Under the pieces are notes generated by a model, which saw only the letters and a list, made by a program, of their open reading frames with translations, was not told where the DNA came from and made no database searches. Positions 54,073-64,000 of a stretch of DNA of 64,000 nt are shown here, piece after piece. The stretch is taken from the NCBI RefSeq assembly GCF_003367235.1, contig NZ_QRGP01000001.1, positions 682,001 to 746,000 on the forward strand, given 5' to 3'. The first letter of the stretch is position 1. Each line of letters starts with the position of its first letter. This DNA comes from Sphingorhabdus pulchriflava (GTDB lineage Bacteria > Pseudomonadota > Alphaproteobacteria > Sphingomonadales > Sphingomonadaceae). The position numbers were made by a program, and so were the translations under genes.

Positions 54073-54978
54073 ATGACGCGCAAATTGACTCATTTGGAAC
54101 GGCTTGAAGCTGAGGCAATCCACATCATGCGGGAGGTGGTTGCCGAAGCTGAGAAGCCGGTTATGCTCTATTCTGTTGGCAAGGACAGTGCCGTGATGCT
54201 GCATCTCGCCCGGAAAGCATTCTATCCTTCACCGCCGCCTTTTCCGTTGCTGCATGTCGACACCACCTGGAAGTTTCAGGAGATGTACAAGCTTCGCGAC
54301 CGGATGGCGCAGGAGAGTGGCATGGAGCTGCTGGTTTATCAGAACCCCGAGGCGAAAGCGCGAGGGATCAACCCGTTCGACCACGGCCCGCTCCACACAG
54401 ATATGTGGAAGACAGAGGGACTAAAGCAGGCTCTCGACAAATATGGCTTTGATGCCGCATTTGGCGGTGCACGTCGGGACGAAGAAAAAAGCCGTGCCAA
54501 GGAACGCATATTCTCTTTCCGTACAGCGAGCCATGGCTGGGACCCGAAGAATCAGCGGCCTGAATTGTGGAACCTCTACAACGCCCGCAAATCGAAGGGT
54601 GAGAGTATCAGGGTTTTTCCGATCTCGAATTGGACCGAACTGGATATCTGGCAATATATCCATCTGAACGACATCCCGATCGTACCGCTTTATTTCAGCG
54701 CCAAACGTCCGACTGTGGAGCGTGACGGATTGTTACTGATGGTCGACGATGACCGTTTCCCGTTGCGCGAAGGCGAAGTGCCGGTTGAACGCTCAATCCG
54801 GTTTCGGACGTTGGGCTGCTATCCACTGACCGGGGCTGTCGAGAGTGAGGCGACGACACTTTCGGAAGTGATACAGGAAATGCTCCTGACCACTACCAGT
54901 GAGCGCCAAGGCCGCATCATCGACAAGGATGGTGGCGATGCGTCAATGGAAAAGAAGAAGCAGGAGGGGTATTTCTGA
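54073..54978 (+). CDS. cysD: Sulfate adenylyltransferase subunit 2
   Basis: CysD is the catalytic ATP sulfurylase subunit forming adenosine phosphosulfate. The 301-residue protein has the PP-loop [46 protein letters not shown] and the [14 protein letters not shown] and [16 protein letters not shown] blocks. It overlaps cysNC by one base. No sulfate reductase or transporter genes follow, so the operon is limited to activation and PAP(S) turnover. Confidence 0.97.
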
Positions 54979-56903
54979 TGTCCGCTCCGAACACAACTAT
55001 CGACGCGATCTATAAGACCGATGCTTTGATTGCAGAGGATATCGACGCTTATCTGGAAACGCACCAGCATAAGAGTTTGTTGCGATTCATTACCTGCGGA
55101 TCGGTTGATGACGGCAAATCAACGCTGATCGGGCGGTTGCTTTATGACAGCAAGATGATTTTCGAGGATCAACTTGAAGCGCTGCAGTCGGACAGCAAGC
55201 GTGTCGGCACACAGGGGCAGGATATCGACTTCGCATTGTTGGTAGATGGCCTTGCAGCTGAGCGAGAGCAGGGCATCACAATTGATGTTGCCTATCGCTT
55301 CTTTGCTACTGAAAAACGCAAGTTCATTGTCGCCGATTGCCCAGGGCATGAGCAATATACCCGCAATATGGTGACCGGGGCTTCAACCGCCGACTTGGCC
55401 GTCATTTTGATCGATGCGCGCAAAGGCGTGTTGGTTCAAACGCGGCGGCACAGCTATCTTGCGAAGTTAATTGGCATCAAGAATATCGTCCTGGCAGTTA
55501 ATAAGATGGACCTGATCGGCTACAGCCAGGCCACCTATGAAGCCATCGTTGCGGACTATATGTCCTTTGCAGCCTCAATCGGCATTGACCATTTCACGGC
55601 AATTCCGATTTCAGGTTTCAAGGGCGACAATATCACGGCGAATTCGCCAAACACGCCCTGGTATCACGGCGCACCTTTGATCGAGCATCTGGAAACAGTC
55701 GAAATCGATCTTGTGAGCGATCAAGCCAAGCCGCTGCGTATGCCGGTGCAATGGGTCAATCGACCAAATCTGGATTTTCGAGGATTTTCGGGCCTGATCG
55801 CAACCGGTTCAGTTAAACCGGGGGATGCGATCCGTGTGTTACCGTCCGGAAAGACCTCGACGGTATCAAAGATTGTAACTCTTGACAAAGAACTCGACGA
55901 AGCGGTTGCTGGTCAATCGGTCACTATCTGCTTTGCAGACGAGATCGACTGCTCGCGTGGCGATGTGATTGCTGCCGCTGACGCCCCGCCTGAAGTATCG
56001 AACCAGTTTGAAAGCACAATTGTCTGGCTCGATGATGATCCGTTGCATGTCGGACGGGCCTATTGGCTGAAGCTGGGGACGCAATTGGTTTCGGCTACCG
56101 TTCAAGAGCCGAAATATACCGTCAACGTCAATACCATGGAGCATTTGGCGGCCAAGACGCTGGAATTGAACGCCATTGGTGTGGTGGAACTGGCGACCGA
56201 TAAACCTATCGTGTTTGAAGCCTATGCTGACAATCGTGCGCTGGGTGGCTTCATTCTGATCGACAAGATCACCAATCGAACCGTCGGCGCCGGTATGTTG
56301 CACTTCTCCTTGCGCCGCGCACAAAATGTGCACTGGCAACCAACCGACATCACCCGGGAAGCGCATGCAGGTTTGAAGAACCAGAAACCCTGTGTCTTAT
56401 GGTTCACAGGTCTGTCTGGTTCCGGCAAGTCGACTATCGCCAACGAAGTTGAAAAGCAGCTCAACCTGATGAACCGGCACACATTCCTGCTCGACGGCGA
56501 TAATGTGCGGCACGGCTTGAACAAGGATCTGGGCTTTACCGAAGCCGACCGTATCGAAAACATCCGCCGCGTGGGCGAGGTCGCCAAGCTGATGGCTGAT
56601 GCAGGCCTGATCGTCCTGACAGCCTTTATCTCGCCATTCCGCGCAGAACGTGAGATGGTAAGGAAGATGCTGCCCGAAGGCGAGTTTATCGAGATATTTG
56701 TCGATACGCCCTTGGAGGTGGCCGAGGCACGCGACGTGAAGGGTCTCTATAAAAAGGCGCGAAGCGGCGCTCTAAAGAACTTCACCGGCATTGATAGCCC
56801 GTACGAGGCACCTGAAAATCCGGAAATTCGAGTCAACACAGTTGAAATGACCGTGCAAGAAGCGGCAGAACATATCATCAAACAGATATTGCCTTTGAAA
56901 TGA
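54978..56903 (+). CDS. cysNC: Bifunctional sulfate adenylyltransferase subunit 1 / APS kinase
   Basis: A 641-residue fusion of CysN (GTPase regulatory subunit) and CysC (APS kinase). The GTPase motifs are [27 protein letters not shown] and NKMDLI. The CysC half starts near residue 470 with [17 protein letters not shown] and includes [15 protein letters not shown]. The enzyme couples GTP hydrolysis to APS synthesis and then phosphorylates APS to PAPS. Such fusions occur in many alphaproteobacteria for assimilation and, in rhizobia (NodQ), for sulfating a secreted molecule. Confidence 0.97.
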
Positions 56904-57652
56904 GTGACGCGATGAATGCATCCCGTACCGATGCCGAACTGGCAGCGCATCTGGCAGATGTTGCAGGCAAACTGCTGCTGCAGGTCCGCGCATCCGGGGC
57001 ACTGTCGGCGAAGGCATTGGGCAATGCCGGAGATGCAACGGCCAACCAGTTTCTGTGCCATGCGATCCGCGAGCAGCGGCCCGATGACGGGCTGTTGTCT
57101 GAAGAAGAGCGGGACAATGCAGCGCGCCTTTCGAAGTCACGCGTCTGGATCATCGATCCGGTCGATGGCACGCGCGAATATGGGGAGCAGCGCAGCGATT
57201 GGGCCGTGCATGTCGGTTTGAGCATCGACGGTGTCCCTACCACGGGAGCTGTTGCATTGCCGGATCTCGATCTGGTCTTGCGCACCGATTCACTTATCGA
57301 AATTACTACAGCTCCCCCAAGGCTGCGCATGGTCGTGAGCCGCACCCGCCCTGCTAAAGAGGCTGTTTTTGTTGCCGAGGAATTAGGTGCCGAACTAATC
57401 CCGATGGGTTCGGCCGGTGCGAAGGCCATGGCTATTGTTCGAGGCGAGGCTGACATTTATTTGCACACCGGCGGACAATATGAATGGGACAGTTGCGCGC
57501 CAGCGGCTGTGGCTGCGGCCCACGGTTTGCATGTTTCGCGCGTTGATGGCAGCCCGCTTTTGTACAACCAGCAGGATGTATACATGCCTGATTTGCTCAT
57601 TTGCCGCAAAGACCATGCACAAACCGTTCTGGATATCCTGCGCCAAGGTTGA
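56900..57652 (+). CDS. cysQ: 3'(2'),5'-bisphosphate nucleotidase CysQ
   Basis: CysQ recycles PAP left after sulfonation or PAPS reduction. The 250-residue inositol-monophosphatase-fold protein has the metal motif [12 protein letters not shown] and the C-terminal [19 protein letters not shown]. It overlaps cysNC by 4 bases and completes a cysD-cysNC-cysQ operon. A related role in dephosphorylating inositol phosphates is less likely given the context. Confidence 0.93.
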
Positions 57653-57770: not shown

Positions 57771-58226
57771 ATGCCAGGTGTGTGGTTTGACGAAATGTAT
57801 GTGGGACAGGAGTTCGATCATCCGATCCGCAGGACGGTGACCGAAACCGACAATGTCCTTTTTACGGCGATGACCCATAATCCAGCGCTGCTTCATTTGG
57901 ACGAAGAATATATGAAAGGCACCGAATTTGGTGCGCGTATCGTCAACAGCGCTTTTACGCTGGGGTTGATGGTCGGTATTTCGGTTGGCGATACGACGCT
58001 GGGTACAGCTGTCGCTAATCTGGGATGGGACGAAGTCCGCTTTCCGAAACCGCTCTTTCACGGAGACACTGTCAATGTAAGGAGCGAAGTGATTGAGCTG
58101 CGCGAATCCAAGTCACGGCCCGATGCTGGCATCGTGACCTTCCTGCATCAGGCATTCAACCAGCATGGCGATCTGGTCGCATCGTGCAAACGTTCGGGGC
58201 TGCAGCGGAAGAAACCTGTATCATGA
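57771..58226 (+). CDS. MaoC-like hot-dog dehydratase
   Basis: The 151-residue single hot-dog protein belongs to the MaoC/(R)-hydratase family, which hydrates enoyl-CoA esters. The block RTVTETDNVLFTAMTHNPALLHLDEEYM carries the Asp/His-type hydratase motif (D about 27 in TETDN, H in LLHLDEEY), and IVNSAFTLGLMVGISV follows. Its stop overlaps the start of the CitE-type lyase gene. The pair recalls mesaconyl- or malyl-CoA metabolism, but the substrate is not shown. Confidence 0.85.
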   Translation: MPGVWFDEMYVGQEFDHPIRRTVTETDNVLFTAMTHNPALLHLDEEYMKGTEFGARIVNSAFTLGLMVGISVGDTTLGTAVANLGWDEVRFPKPLFHGDTVNVRSEVIELRESKSRPDAGIVTFLHQAFNQHGDLVASCKRSGLQRKKPVS

Positions 58227-59122
58227 CGGCACTTCCACTGCGTTCAATGTTGTTCATCCCGGGGGACAGCGAAAAGAAAATCGCCAAAGTTGCTGATTGC
58301 GGTGCCGATGCGGTGATATTCGATCTTGAAGATTCCGTAGCGATAGAAAACAAGGCTTTGGCGCGCGAACTAATCGCTGCTTATCTAAAGCAAACACCGC
58401 GCGGTGCTCGGCCCCTACAATATTGGGTGCGGGTCAATCCGTTCGACACGGGGCTAACGCTGGATGATCTTGCGGCCATCACTGGCGGAGCGCCCGATGG
58501 CATCGTGCAGCCCAAGACCAATGACCCTGAAGATGTCCGGCAACTCTCGCACTATCTCGACGCGTTCGAAGTTGCGCATGGAATAGAGCCCGGTTCGATC
58601 AAGATACTGCCCGTTGCCACTGAAACGGCAGCGGCGCCATTTTCGCTCGGCGAGTTTGCATATGCGGGGCTGGAGCGGCTGGTAGGGCTGACATGGGGGG
58701 CTGAAGACCTTGCTGCGGCTGTAGGTGCCAGCACCAACAAGGATGCCAATGGCGAATGGACATTCACCTATAAAATGGCGCGCTCGCTCTGCTTGCTCGC
58801 AGCGCATGCCGCCGGGGTCGAGGCCATCGACACCCTCTATGTTGATTTCCGAGATGATGATGGGCTGCGCGCCTCGTCACGTGAGGCAAGGGCAGAGGGC
58901 TTTACTGGTCGCCTGTGCATTCACCCTGCTCAAGTGGCCGGGGTGAATGAGAGCTTTATGCCATCTGCAGACGAAATCGGCCATGCACAACGCGTGATCG
59001 ATGCGTTCGCAGCCAATCCTGGCGCAGGTACAGTGGGTTTGGACGGCAAGATGGTTGATATTCCGCACAAAAAGCAGGCGGAACGAATTTTGGCGCAGGC
59101 CACAGCCTTTGGCGCAATTTGA
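58223..59122 (+). CDS. HpcH/HpaI-family CoA ester lyase (CitE-like)
   Basis: The 299-residue TIM-barrel protein resembles CitE and L-malyl-CoA/beta-methylmalyl-CoA lyase. Diagnostic blocks are LRSMLFIPGDSEKKIAK, AVIFDLEDSVA (metal glutamate/aspartate), YWVRVNPFDTG, VGLTWGAEDLAAAVGA and CIHPAQV. It lies in an ATGA overlap with the MaoC hydratase. No citrate lyase alpha or gamma subunits are near, so a stand-alone malyl-CoA-type lyase is the better guess. Confidence 0.85.
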   Translation: MTALPLRSMLFIPGDSEKKIAKVADCGADAVIFDLEDSVAIENKALARELIAAYLKQTPRGARPLQYWVRVNPFDTGLTLDDLAAITGGAPDGIVQPKTNDPEDVRQLSHYLDAFEVAHGIEPGSIKILPVATETAAAPFSLGEFAYAGLERLVGLTWGAEDLAAAVGASTNKDANGEWTFTYKMARSLCLLAAHAAGVEAIDTLYVDFRDDDGLRASSREARAEGFTGRLCIHPAQVAGVNESFMPSADEIGHAQRVIDAFAANPGAGTVGLDGKMVDIPHKKQAERILAQATAFGAI

Positions 59123-59142: not shown

Positions 59143-60372
59143 GTGGAAAAATTTGATGTCGTGATTGTGGGTGCGGGACATGGCGGTGCTTCCGCTGCCA
59201 TTGCGCTGCGCCAGTCTGGCTTTGCAGGCAGCATTGCCCTTGTCGGACGCGAAGCTGAAATCCCTTATGAGCGGCCGCCTCTGTCCAAGGAGTATATGGC
59301 GGGAGAAAAGGAGTTCGAACGCATCTGCATTCGTCCGCGGGCGTTCTGGGAGGAAAAACAGGTTGCGCTGAAGCTTGGGATCGCGGTGATTTCTATCGAT
59401 TCGGCTGCGCAACAACTGACCTTGGATAATGGTAAAAAACTAATCTACGGCGATCTTATTTGGGCGACCGGCGGAGACCCAAGGACACTTAGTTGTCCCG
59501 GTGCCGAACTTGCCGGAGTGCATAGCGTGCGCAATCGGGCCGATGCCGATGCGATAATGGGGCAGCTTCCAGACGTCGAGCAGGTGGTGGTCATTGGCGG
59601 CGGCTATATCGGGCTGGAGGCTGCGGCAGTTCTGACCAAGTTGGGCAAGAAGGTGGTCTTGCTTGAAGCATTGCCGCGCGTACTTGCCCGCGTCGCAGGT
59701 GAAGATCTGTCTTCCTTTTACGAGGCAGAACACCGGGCACATGGGGTAGATCTGCGCACAAACGTTGGCGTCTCCGCGATCGATGGCCTGGAAGGCAAAG
59801 TCACGGCTGTTCGGTTAGAGGACGGCAGCTCGATTCCCGCGCAAATGGTGATTGTCGGCATAGGTATCGTTCCTGCCGTCGAACCGCTGATCGCCGCTGG
59901 TGCTGAAGGGGGGAACGGCGTCAATGTCGACGCGCATTGCCGAACCAGCCTGCCGCATGTCTATGCGATTGGGGATTGCGCGGCACACGCAAACGGCTTT
60001 GCCGAAGGCGCAACGATTCGCCTCGAATCCGTCCAGAATGCCAATGATCAGGCCAGCATCGCGGCCAAAGCGATTTGCGGTGATCTACATGCATATGCGG
60101 CAACGCCCTGGTTCTGGTCTAACCAATATGATCTGAAACTACAGACGGTAGGCCTGTCGACCGGCCATGACCAAAGCGTGTTGCGAGGTGATCCTGCCAC
60201 GCGCAGTTTTTCAATAGTGTATTTGAAGGCTGGTAAAGTTGTCGCTCTCGACTGCGTAAACATGGTCAAAGACTATGTGCAAGGGCGCAAACTGGTTGAG
60301 GCTGGCGCAAAGATCGATCCGGCGTTGCTCTCCGATGCAGCTACTCCTCTCAAGGAGTTGCTTCCGGCTTGA
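59143..60372 (+). CDS. Ferredoxin--NAD(P)+ reductase, rubredoxin/P450-reductase type
   Basis: A 409-residue FAD/NAD(P) oxidoreductase of the rhodocoxin/putidaredoxin reductase class. The FAD motif [17 protein letters not shown] is at the N-terminus, the NAD motif [17 protein letters not shown] at about 145, and [18 protein letters not shown] and YAIGDCAAH follow. It starts with GTG at 59143. Such enzymes feed electrons to a [2Fe-2S] ferredoxin and then a P450 or dioxygenase, but none is encoded nearby. It follows the CitE-like gene by 20 bases and may be in its operon. Confidence 0.88.
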
Positions 60373-60389: not shown

Positions 60390-60432
60390 TGGTGAGCCCT
60401 GCTGGATTCGAACCAGCGACCTACTGATTAAA
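60390..60432 (-). other. 3' half of a tRNA-Lys gene (probable attachment-site remnant)
   Basis: Read on the minus strand, the 43 bases run from an anticodon-like TTT through AATCAGTAGGTCGCTGG and TTCGAATCCAGC to GGGCTCACCA. This matches the anticodon-to-CCA half of a lysine tRNA, including the complete T arm and encoded CCA. The 5' half is absent: upstream bases cannot form an acceptor stem with GGGCTCA, and base 33 is C instead of T. A 3' tRNA fragment like this is what remains after integration of a mobile element into a tRNA gene. Confidence 0.75.
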
Positions 60433-60570
60433 GGGTGTCAGTAAGTCCATCAACTTCCGTAGTTGTCTTTGTTTCTCTATCGAGAAGGGTAGGCTGCTAT
60501 CATGATCGCTGTTTGATCGTGACAGAGCGCATTTGATGAATAAGAAGAGGGAAACCGCGTTTGGCGGTAA

Positions 60571-60780
60571 TTCGGAAGCGTTAATGCTATCGAACTGGAC
60601 CGAAGCGGCGAGTGTTGGACGAATTTGCGCAAGCTACGACAAGCCAAAGGCTGGTCGCAGTCGCAGTTTGCGTTCGAGGCTGAGTTCCAACAAGCCTATA
60701 TCAGTGACCTTGAACGTGGAGATCGCAATCCCACTATATCATTGGTGCAGAGGCTGGCGGATTGTTTAGGGGTCAGGGCG
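60571..60780 (+). pseudogene. Damaged XRE-family helix-turn-helix regulator
   Basis: One frame reads TNLRKLRQAKGWSQSQFAFE, then AEFQQAYISDLERGDRNPTISLVQRLADCLGV. This is a clear XRE HTH domain of the kind common in mobile elements. There is no in-frame ATG or GTG before it after the stop at 60568, and the frame then continues without a normal end into antisense of the next gene. It therefore looks like a truncated gene, or one with an unusual start (TTG at 60625). Base composition is lower in G+C than nearby. It lies about 140 bases from the tRNA-Lys fragment. Confidence 0.55.
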
Positions 60781-60915
60781 GGGGGAGCTGATTGGCTGAG
60801 CTGGGTGTTGAGTTGTTTTAGATCTAATCAGATGCCTGCAATTCAGTCTGGAATATCGAAAGTTTATTCAAATTTGTTCGTCTCATGTGCTCAATTTCGA
60901 TTGAGAGCAGATCGA

Positions 60916-62070
60916 TCAGTAACTCCTCGGCAGGCCGAGGACATGCTCGGCAACGAAGGAGAGGATCATGTTCGTGCTGATTGGTGCGACTTGATAGAGC
61001 CGCGTTTCGCGGAACTTGCGTTCGACATCATATTCGGCGGCAAATCCGAACCCGCCATGCGTCTGCACACAGGCTTCGCCCGCCGCCCAACTGGCTTCAG
61101 CGGCGAGCATCTTCGCCATATTGGCTTCCTCGCCGCAATTCTCGCCTGCCTCATATTTGCGGATGCCTTCCTGCACGAGCAGGTCGGCGGCGCGCATCTG
61201 CGCATAAGCGCGGGCGATGGGGAACTGGACGCCCTGGTTCTGGCCGATGGGCCGACCGAACAACACCCGCTCCTTGGCGTAAGCGGTCGCCTTTTCGATG
61301 AACCATTTGGCATCGCCGATACATTCAGCCGCGATCAGCAGACGCTCGGCATTCATGCCTGATAGGATGTAGCGGAAGCCCTTGCCCTCCTCGCCAATCA
61401 GATTGGCGGCGGGCACCTCCATATTGTCGAAGAATACGGCGGTGGTCGCGTGGTTCATCATCGTGTCGATGGGATTGATGGTGAGCGTGCCTGCCGCCAG
61501 CGCTTCCTTCATGTCCACCAGAAAGACCGAAAGCCCCTCGGTGCGGCTCGCTGCCTCTTCGCGCGGCGTGGTGCGGGCGAGGAGGAGCATTAGGTCCGAA
61601 TGCTCGGCGCGGCTCGTCCAGATTTTCTGGCCGTTGACGATGTAACGGTCGCCATCCTTTTTGGCGACGGTCTTGAGGCTCAGCGTATCGGTGCCGCTGG
61701 TCGGTTCGGTCACGCCAAAGGCCTGCAGGCGCAGTTCGCCGGTTGCGATCTTGGGCAGGTAACGCTGCTTCTGCTCCTCGCTGCCATGACGTAGCACCGT
61801 GCCCATGATATACATTTGCGCATGCACCGCGCCGCCGTTGCAGCCCTGCTTCTGGACTTCTTCAAGGATCGCTGCTGCCGCCGATAGCGGCAGGCCAGCA
61901 CCGCCATATTCTTCCGGGATCAGGGCGGCGAGATAGCCTGCTGCGCCCAAGGCTGTCACAAACTCGGATGGATAGGCGCGATCCTTATCCTTCGCACGCC
62001 AATATTCGCCGGGATACCCCGCGCACAGCTTGGCAACTTCTTCGCGGATGGCGGTGTAATCGTGGGTCAC
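60916..62070 (-). CDS. Acyl-CoA dehydrogenase
   Basis: The 384-residue FAD enzyme has the standard three-domain plan: IPEEYGGAGLPLSAAAAILEEV, LQAFGVTEPTSGTDTLSLKT and KIWTSRAEHSDLM, with the C-terminal QTHGGFGFAAEYDVERKFRE and LGLPRSY. I place the start at GTG 62070, giving MTHDYTAIREEV and a 4-base overlap with the upstream gene; an ATG at 62085 is an alternative. It is the last gene of a thiolase-dehydrogenase-dehydrogenase operon. The acyl substrate is unknown. Confidence 0.88.
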   Translation of the reverse strand: MTHDYTAIREEVAKLCAGYPGEYWRAKDKDRAYPSEFVTALGAAGYLAALIPEEYGGAGLPLSAAAAILEEVQKQGCNGGAVHAQMYIMGTVLRHGSEEQKQRYLPKIATGELRLQAFGVTEPTSGTDTLSLKTVAKKDGDRYIVNGQKIWTSRAEHSDLMLLLARTTPREEAASRTEGLSVFLVDMKEALAAGTLTINPIDTMMNHATTAVFFDNMEVPAANLIGEEGKGFRYILSGMNAERLLIAAECIGDAKWFIEKATAYAKERVLFGRPIGQNQGVQFPIARAYAQMRAADLLVQEGIRKYEAGENCGEEANMAKMLAAEASWAAGEACVQTHGGFGFAAEYDVERKFRETRLYQVAPISTNMILSFVAEHVLGLPRSY

Positions 62071-63230
62071 GCACTGGCACTCCATTCGCGCAGCATATGT
62101 TTTGCAATCTGCAATTGGAGGATCTGCGTTGTGCCTTCGTAGATGCGGTAGATGCGACTATCGCGAAAAAAGCGTTCGGCATCATATTCAGCGAGGTAAC
62201 CGGCACCGCCATAAATCTGCACGACCCGATCGACCACGCGGCCGCACATTTCAGATGCGAAGACCTTGGCGGCGGCAGCCTTGCGCAGGATGTTCTCACC
62301 GGCATCGGCACGGCGGGCTGCGTCTTCGAGCATGCATTCCGCTGCGTAGATTTCAATCTCGCTATCTGCCAGCATCTGCTGGATCAGCTGGAAATTGGCA
62401 ATTGGCTCGCCAAAGGCCTTGCGTTCATTGGCATAGCGCATCGCACTGTCTAGCGCGCGGCGTGCATAGCCGGCAGCTGCAGACCCCACGGACAACCGAC
62501 CATTGTCGAGGCTTTGCATAGCGGTCACAAATCCCTTGCCTTCCTCACCACCCAGCAGCGCGTCGCCAGGGACATGGACGTCTTCCATGATGATGTCGGC
62601 AATGTGTGATCCGGCCTGTCCCATCTTCTTGTCCGACTTGCCGACGCTTATGCCCGGTGTATCCATTGGTACGAGGAAGGCAGAAACATGCGCATTTTTG
62701 GGAAGCGCTTCCTTCGAAGTCCGCGCCATGATGAGTGCGACATTCGCGAAGGGGGCATTGGTGATGTAACGCTTGGTGCCATTCAGCACATAGCCATTGC
62801 CGGAACGCGTCGCCATCGTCTGCATCGCAGCGGAGTCAGATCCTGACCCCGGCTCGGTCAACCCAAAGCTTGCAATCTCGCCACCGGCCAGACGCGGCAA
62901 CCACTCGGCTTTCTGTTCCGCCGTCCCGCCCTTCATCAGCGCAGAGCAGACCATGCCGATATTGATCGACGTGATCGAGCGATAGCAAGGCATGGCGTAG
63001 CTCAGCTCGCGGATGGTGCGGGTGTATTGGCTGATGTTCATGCCTGCCCCGCCAAATTCTTCTGGCATGGTTAGGCCGAACAACCCCATGTCGCGCATCT
63101 CTTTCATGATTTCATCAGGGATGACGTCGGTTTCGAGAATTTGCTTTTCAGCCGGGACTAGCCTTTCGCGCACATAGCGCTTCAACTGTTCCAGAAAGGC
63201 GTCAAATACGTCTTGGTCCATACCACTCAT
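62067..63230 (-). CDS. Acyl-CoA dehydrogenase
   Basis: A second 387-residue acyl-CoA dehydrogenase, with FGLTMPEEFGGAGMN, IASFGLTEPGSGSDSAAMQT, NGTKRYITNAPFA and the C-terminal VQIYGGAGYLAEYDAERFFRD and YEGTTQILQLQIAKHML, where the glutamate of YEGT is the catalytic base. It starts at ATG 63230 after GGAAGAAAAG. Two unlike dehydrogenases in tandem suggest a pathway with two oxidation steps or a heteromeric enzyme, as seen in steroid side-chain degradation. Confidence 0.9.
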   Translation of the reverse strand: MSGMDQDVFDAFLEQLKRYVRERLVPAEKQILETDVIPDEIMKEMRDMGLFGLTMPEEFGGAGMNISQYTRTIRELSYAMPCYRSITSINIGMVCSALMKGGTAEQKAEWLPRLAGGEIASFGLTEPGSGSDSAAMQTMATRSGNGYVLNGTKRYITNAPFANVALIMARTSKEALPKNAHVSAFLVPMDTPGISVGKSDKKMGQAGSHIADIIMEDVHVPGDALLGGEEGKGFVTAMQSLDNGRLSVGSAAAGYARRALDSAMRYANERKAFGEPIANFQLIQQMLADSEIEIYAAECMLEDAARRADAGENILRKAAAAKVFASEMCGRVVDRVVQIYGGAGYLAEYDAERFFRDSRIYRIYEGTTQILQLQIAKHMLREWSASA

Positions 63231-63240
63231 CTTTTCTTCC

Positions 63241-64000
63241 TTATGCGCCGTGCAGGCCGACAATGGCTACGGCTGAAACATTCTGTACGGGTTGCCCTCC
63301 CAGATTATGAGAGAGCGCAAATACGGGATTGTCCTGCCGTTGCCGGTCACCGGCGCGGCCGAGCAGTTGCAGGTAGTTTTCGTAGATCATCCGCAGGCCC
63401 GACGCCCCGATTGGGTGGCCGAAGCATTTGAGGCCACCGTCAATCTGGCAGGGGATGCTGCCATCCGCATCGAAAAAGCCGTCGCGGACGTCTTTCCAGC
63501 CTTCGCCTTCTTTGGAAATATAAAGGTCTTCCATTGTCACCAGTTCGGTAATCGAGAAGCAGTCATGCACCTCCATCAGGCTAACCTGTTCGCGCGGCTT
63601 GGTAATGCCCGCTTCCTCATACGCTTTGGCTGCAGCAATGCGGGTTGTGTGGAAATAGCTGCCATCCCAACCACCGCCTTGCTGCATTTCCCATCCGTTG
63701 GAGGCGGAGATTTGCAGGGCCTTGATCGTTACGAGCTCCTGCTTGCCTAATGCTTTGGCGATTTCGGGCGTTGTGACGATGGCACAGGCCGCGCCGTCCG
63801 ATACCCCGCAGCAGTCATATAGGCCGAGCGGATCAGCGATCATCGGAGCGTTGAGTACCGTGTCGATATCGACCGCCTTTTGCAGATGCGCTTTGGGGTT
63901 CTTTGCTCCATTGGCGTGACTCTTGACTGAGACATGGGCGATGGCACGTTTTAGGTCATCGCGTGATACGCCGTGCTTGGCGCGATAGGCGGAGGCAATC
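63241..64000 (-). CDS. Thiolase / acetyl-CoA acetyltransferase (partial, 5' end outside window)
   Basis: About 252 C-terminal residues are visible. They include MIADPLGLYDCCGVSDGAA, a SLMEVHDCFSITEL block and the terminal CFGHPIGASGLRMIYE and SHNLGGQPV, which carry the catalytic His and Asn-like residues of SCP2-type thiolases. The N-terminal active-site cysteine lies outside the window. The gene ends 10 bases before the next dehydrogenase start, so it is the upstream member of the same operon. It probably cleaves a 3-ketoacyl-CoA. Confidence 0.88.
   Translation of the reverse strand, partial: IASAYRAKHGVSRDDLKRAIAHVSVKSHANGAKNPKAHLQKAVDIDTVLNAPMIADPLGLYDCCGVSDGAACAIVTTPEIAKALGKQELVTIKALQISASNGWEMQQGGGWDGSYFHTTRIAAAKAYEEAGITKPREQVSLMEVHDCFSITELVTMEDLYISKEGEGWKDVRDGFFDADGSIPCQIDGGLKCFGHPIGASGLRMIYENYLQLLGRAGDRQRQDNPVFALSHNLGGQPVQNVSAVAIVGLHGA

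Follow-up and report, generated by a model that had tools for sequence, protein, structure and literature searches.

An 85-kb stretch of the Sphingorhabdus pulchriflava genome, bounded by an intact tRNA-Lys gene and a displaced copy of its 3' half, is probably an integrase-less genomic island at tRNA-Lys, one whose integrase has been lost and which holds a catabolic cluster of likely foreign origin. The displaced copy and the first genes of the interval lie in the window that was analysed (64,000 bp, C1:682001-746000, in a genome of 3.22 Mb and 6 contigs), and the interval continues beyond its right edge. We infer that a single integration brought in the whole interval, that an integrase was formerly present, and the direction of transfer.

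The two tRNA-Lys copies and their surroundings

The displaced copy of tRNA-Lys(UUU) occupies positions 60390-60432 of the window on the minus strand and would form the left end of the island. All 43 of its 43 bases are identical to tRNA-Lys (genome-wide search, E 6.8e-16), and they run from anticodon base 34 to the CCA end of a gene whose intact form has 76 nt and its anticodon at position 34. A first-pass annotation of the sequence had described this minus-strand 43-base 3' half without a full tRNA and had suggested running a tRNA finder over it. The description holds: ARAGORN made zero tRNA calls across the 64-kb window, and Rfam found no tRNA at the fragment, the intact gene being the sole tRNA in the two loci searched. 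The fragment sits 17 bp past the stop codon of a ferredoxin reductase-type gene (59143-60372, plus strand) and overlaps no protein domain.

From the orientation of the fragment, the same annotation had predicted an intact minus-strand tRNA-Lys at higher coordinates, and one is found 85.35 kb away, at C1:827783-827858, on the same 2.16-Mb contig. This gene (anticodon ttt) adjoins folK, which carries an HPPK domain, and the further genes past folK were read by eye as housekeeping genes. Both copies are on the minus strand and the 3' end of the intact gene faces the fragment, the arrangement expected when an island occupies a tRNA gene's 3' half. No second fragment and no second intact tRNA-Lys was found inside the interval. 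The combination that had been named as speaking against an island (neither intact tRNA-Lys nor integrase to the right, and identical gene order in all relatives) does not apply here.

In the proposed mechanism, a tyrosine-recombinase element would have integrated into the 3' half of tRNA-Lys(UUU), with the crossover in the anticodon loop. The incoming DNA would have rebuilt the 3' half, giving the gene that now works at C1:827783-827858, and the original 3' half would have been displaced by 85.35 kb, to window position 60390. The 85-kb DNA between the copies would then be the genomic island, and its integrase module would have decayed until a broken XRE regulator alone remained.

Beside the intact tRNA-Lys, a 10-bp direct repeat is present in two copies (C1:827696-827717, 12 bp from start to start), possibly representing putative arm-type integrase sites. 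A wider look for arm repeats of an attachment site gave this 10-bp pair and a 12-bp pair (92%) near the intact tRNA and an 11-bp pair (91%) near the fragment, which were too weak to be retained. A phage search with the intact tRNA region was also set aside, the matches among the best 8 of 1481 records being limited to the tRNA part and a few adjacent bases.

To the left of the fragment, outside the putative island, the ferredoxin reductase-type gene is preceded on the plus strand by MaoC-like hydratase and HpcH/HpaI (citrate lyase-like) genes (57771-59122) and by cysD, cysN/C and cysQ-like genes (54073-57652; names by eye, with PAPS_reduct found in cysD by Pfam). A homologue of the ferredoxin reductase lies 2.3 kb from tRNA-Lys in the congener G002, with thiolase-like and SDR-like genes between them, and it is two genes removed from cysD in G033 and G030. 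Moreover, cysD is found on the same contig and no more than 20 kb from tRNA-Lys in 12 of 44 congeners (G004, G008, G010, G013, G014, G020, G024, G025, G034, G036, G062 and G065), although the gene is directed away from tRNA-Lys in those 12 but towards it in the present genome. These gene neighbourhoods support the view that the left side is the former neighbourhood of tRNA-Lys, though order and orientation differ. As this difference goes together with a 70-bp flank of the fragment that resembles none of 16 other flanks above background (best 64%), the empty site of the lineage was not recovered. The cysD neighbours (54073-57652) are also rearranged in comparison with G026.

Gene content of the interval and the missing integrase

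A simple script called 79 ORFs in the interval, for the most part catabolic genes of acyl-CoA type. Acyl-CoA dehydrogenases are prominent in the Pfam scans, with 9 among 36 proteins of a first batch and 2 among 39 of a second, and the same two batches contain SDRs (6 and 6), CoA ligases (3 and 2) and enoyl-CoA hydratases (2 and 4), together with thiolases, class III CoA transferases (3, in the second batch), amidohydrolases and two P450s. The remaining four ORFs comprise a thioesterase, two aldehyde dehydrogenases and a TonB receptor. Names from NCBIfam, among the best 25 of 560 and the best 25 of 625 families, are likewise broad (acyl-CoA dehydrogenase and SDR). Altogether, the right ~78 kb is predicted to be a catabolic gene cluster for a CoA-activated substrate.

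The first-pass annotation had noted the remnant of an XRE helix-turn-helix gene near the fragment in an AT-richer gap, and both features stand. The gap between the fragment and the first interval gene (60433-60915) has a G+C content of 48.2%; 483-bp windows across 160 kb average 56.9% (SD 2.9), and the gap falls in their lowest 0.4%. No integrase remnant was found in it. The XRE-type regulator lies in this gap at 60584-60798 on the plus strand (HTH_3, E 3.5e-14). Its frame has no ATG start codon and extends beyond the point at which its homologues stop; those with readable ends terminate a few residues past the same motif. Probable start and end pieces of the gene sit in the next frame. The gene is therefore read as broken by two frame breaks, the one near the end backed by homologues and the one near the start a probable one. 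It begins ~150 bp from the fragment, and the integrases of congeners start 132-198 bp from theirs. Homologues of the piece were found within 3 kb of a PF00589 integrase at 4 of 8 other sites in the genus, a count that has no chance control. The XRE piece may thus be the remainder of an integrase module.

A tyrosine recombinase, which the first-pass annotation had expected on the right side, did not materialize. PF00589 has no match in the interval (7 are found elsewhere in the genome), and a tblastn search of the interval with 7 integrase sequences from congeners (two being identical) had a best E of 0.48. For want of an integrase, the locus is not classed as an active integrative element. Across the 79 ORFs, PHROG scans named no family as integrase, transposase or phage structural protein, and their matches at E 1e-5 (36 and 4 ORFs) and at E 1e-10 (39 ORFs) were to metabolic enzymes and several nameless families; lacking a recognizable phage structural gene, the interval does not appear to be a prophage. 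Genes for a relaxase or type IV secretion were found neither among the Pfam families listed (25 of 48 and 25 of 47) nor in the 4 further ORFs scanned.

tRNA-Lys as an integration site in the genus

A full-length tRNA-Lys of the same type is present in 42 of the 45 genomes of the genus (own included), and 9 of the 45 contain displaced partial copies, 10 in all, each of which begins at the tRNA 3' end and stops at base 43-52. A tyrosine recombinase lies beside seven of the ten (G007, G011, G032, G006, G029, G063:C15 and G001, the last as a short ORF of 237 aa), and PF00589 and an arm-binding domain were found in all five integrases tested. Two copies, that of this genome and G063:C4, have no integrase, and the copy of G035 ends its contig. 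Identity to the G007 integrase is 95% for the G063 enzyme and 24-34% for the rest, with G006 and G032 sharing one sequence; this divergence indicates that several integrase types use the site.

Among congeners, occupied sites can be matched with empty ones. The 70 bp left of a fragment show 83% (G032 and G019), 86% (G006 and G008) and 91% (G063:C4 and G008) identity to the flank of a tRNA-Lys that has no displaced copy. Type II secretion genes, so identified by eye, form a cluster that extends up to tRNA-Lys in G022 and G019 and up to the fragment in G032; a type IV leader peptidase gene closes the cluster in G019 and in G032. Judged by sequence comparison, tRNA-Lys is an integration hotspot in the genus.

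Several features of the individual copies can be added. The integrase lies beside the displaced fragment, and not beside the intact tRNA, in all seven cases (G007:C8, G011:C1, G032:C1, G006:C3, G029:C1, G063:C15 and G001:C1); in G006 and G029 the intact tRNA-Lys is on a different contig from the fragment. The usual arrangement has the integrase beside the intact tRNA gene rather than the fragment. Two displaced copies are carried by G063, and the one without an integrase (G063:C4:321399-321443) borders acyl-CoA dehydrogenase-type, flavin monooxygenase-type and amidohydrolase genes. In G035, contigs C1 and C32 both end in tRNA-Lys sequence, with 46 bp in common, suggesting that assembly stopped where the tRNA-Lys site was occupied or mixed. 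In G001, the fragment and its shortened integrase (C1:1050565) are 706 kb from the intact tRNA-Lys (1757003) on the same strand, a distance that suggests a large rearrangement.

Both integrase-less copies, here and in G063:C4, border acyl-CoA catabolic genes. Acyl-CoA genes also lie between cysD and a tRNA-Lys without a displaced copy in G020, G014, G010 and G034. It can be tentatively proposed that the region from cysD to tRNA-Lys-folK is a standing acquisition site, in which varied integrases would import large clusters, integrase loss would fix the catabolic ones, and resident and imported clusters would then exchange sequence. Such exchange is suggested by a 97% identical acyl-CoA dehydrogenase at the island edge.

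Origin of the cluster and comparison with known systems

Relatives of the cluster are found outside the genus. Using at least 50% identity and at least 60% coverage as the threshold for homologues, a 100-kb stretch of G422 has, within ~75 kb of it, homologues of 61 of the 79 ORFs, and 49 of the 61 keep a single order, where 1000 shuffles reached 19 at best. In G238, homologues were found for 50 of the 79, 40 of them in order (best shuffle, 16). Both genomes belong to another genus of the same family. Counting only from C1:749 kb rightwards, the proportions are 61 of 73 and 50 of 73, respectively. Across the order, a middle slice of the interval (C1:782001-802000) was matched by 8 of 396 genomes (own included) at E 1e-120, with one or two candidates scored per genome. 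A plasmid origin was considered and dropped, blastn of an 8-kb island piece having covered no plasmid by more than 12%. An 850-kb replicon of Sphingomonas paeninsulae is a partial relative only, with 14 of 79 ORFs at 50% identity or more in the two stretches compared.

A comparison with relatives, proposed in the first-pass annotation, gave mixed results on whether the interval is lineage-specific. In 44 congeners, the 20-kb middle slice has no collinear block and no match above 1.8 kb (6 candidates scored per genome, of up to 147 found); the longest is 1.8 kb at 70% in G063, with a second, 0.5-kb piece adjacent. The first 20 kb of the interval, on the other hand, has relatives in three of the 10 congeners searched: G001, with ~4.4 kb in two matches at 73-75%, and G032 and G022, each with 3.6 kb at 68-69%.

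It is in this left part that the strongest alternative arises. The first gene of the interval, an acyl-CoA dehydrogenase (60916-62085, minus strand), is a copy of C1:1897552-1898701 with 97% identity in DNA and 100% over 382 aligned residues. The pair shares a long near-identical central tract, with differences mostly towards the ends, and looks like the outcome of a recent gene conversion or duplication. The next gene, named by similarity as a second acyl-CoA dehydrogenase (62067-63263, minus strand), is 71% identical in DNA to the resident C1:1893975-1895095, and a thiolase-type gene follows on the same strand and runs off the window (63241-64000; C1:745241-746452). Overall, the ~6.5 kb at the left end is similar to a resident cluster (C1:1.893-1.899 Mb) in the 97% gene and in two further stretches, of 71% and 74%, and at the above threshold the G422 and G238 stretches hold no homologue of any of its 6 ORFs. 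The earlier suggestion that the thiolase and acyl-CoA dehydrogenase genes from 60.9 kb onwards are cargo is accordingly supported for the genes further right, which behave like lineage-specific cargo, but less so for the dehydrogenases adjoining the fragment, which resemble the resident cluster. Possibly, the island is itself composite.

The locus as a whole could also be composite in a stronger sense: the fragment and the XRE piece would be what is left of an unrelated, small tRNA-Lys element, the cluster would have arrived by another integration or by homologous recombination, and the fragment would not be the end of the cargo unit. Besides the resident-like left part, this would agree with the acyl-CoA genes found near tRNA-Lys in four congeners without a displaced copy, with the two copies in G063 as a sign of repeated events, and with the congener relatives of parts of the first 20 kb. 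However, no additional tRNA-Lys copy, whole or partial, was found between the two ends, and similarity to the G422 cluster extends as far as the TetR gene, whose end is 301 bp from the intact tRNA, though in shuffled order there. A composite locus of this kind is on balance unlikely, while being the alternative that survives best.

Vertical descent, in which the catabolic cluster would be ancestral at the locus and lost in the other sampled congeners, with the tRNA fragment incidental, is considerably less credible. The G+C content of the interval (57.1%) is close to that of its left (56.9%) and right (56.1%) flanks, as is its third-position G+C (62.4%, against 61.6% and 63.6%); neither codon use nor composition separates it from them, and it does not stand out as deviant. 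The recurrence of acyl-CoA genes at the locus in congeners, and of cluster pieces elsewhere in some, would also suit this explanation. Against it, no collinear block for the middle slice was seen in 44 congeners among the 6 candidates scored per genome, while another genus has the cluster in order, and the G238 cluster lies elsewhere, among genes read by eye as housekeeping, with no tRNA found by ARAGORN in the 60 kb scanned (450-510 kb). Chance similarity or an assembly artefact is hardly conceivable given an exact 43-bp match on one contig with the intact gene and nine more such partial copies in congeners.

The favoured reading, that of an island at tRNA-Lys whose integrase was lost, can be compared with described systems. 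Among the literature matches listed (titles and abstract openings), no island at tRNA-Lys of Sphingomonadales was seen, and no priority is claimed. As set out in the Islander description, islands consist of an intact tRNA gene followed downstream by a displaced 3' fragment of the same orientation, within length limits of 2-200 kb; the anticodon loop is listed among the attachment subsites, and an integrase filter is applied (PMC4383910). The present interval is like these islands in its tRNA, fragment, orientation, configuration, length (85 kb) and lack of overlap with coding sequence (PMC4383910), in an identity block that ends in the anticodon loop, and in having integrase-bearing examples at the same tRNA in congeners. 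It differs in that no integrase was found between the copies, for which the Islander filter would reject it, and in its host-like base composition. An 85-kb catabolic block whose only mark is a 43-bp tRNA scar would probably be missed both by composition-based searches and by those requiring an integrase, and looking for displaced tRNA fragments without an integrase is suggested as a way to find further cases.

Further counterparts are the tRNA-Lys elements of G007, G011, G032 and G063:C15, which use the same target gene on the same side and have displaced copies of 45-52 bp, and which place the block at a hotspot with integrase-bearing relatives. Unlike the present locus, these four carry an integrase beside the displaced fragment. 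The intervals of G007, G011 and G063:C15 measure 15-19 kb, and their called cargo ORFs have no match to the proteins of this region; that of G032, which was partly looked at, measures 77 kb. Catabolic islands and ICEs at tRNA genes have also been described in Pseudomonas bharatica CSV86 (PMC9298801). Whereas conjugation and integration genes were not found here (Pfam families listed; PF00589, tblastn and PHROG), unlike in the elements of that strain, the block resembles the CSV86 islands, as they are described, in being large, in belonging to a degrader, and in its position at or near a tRNA gene (PMC9298801).
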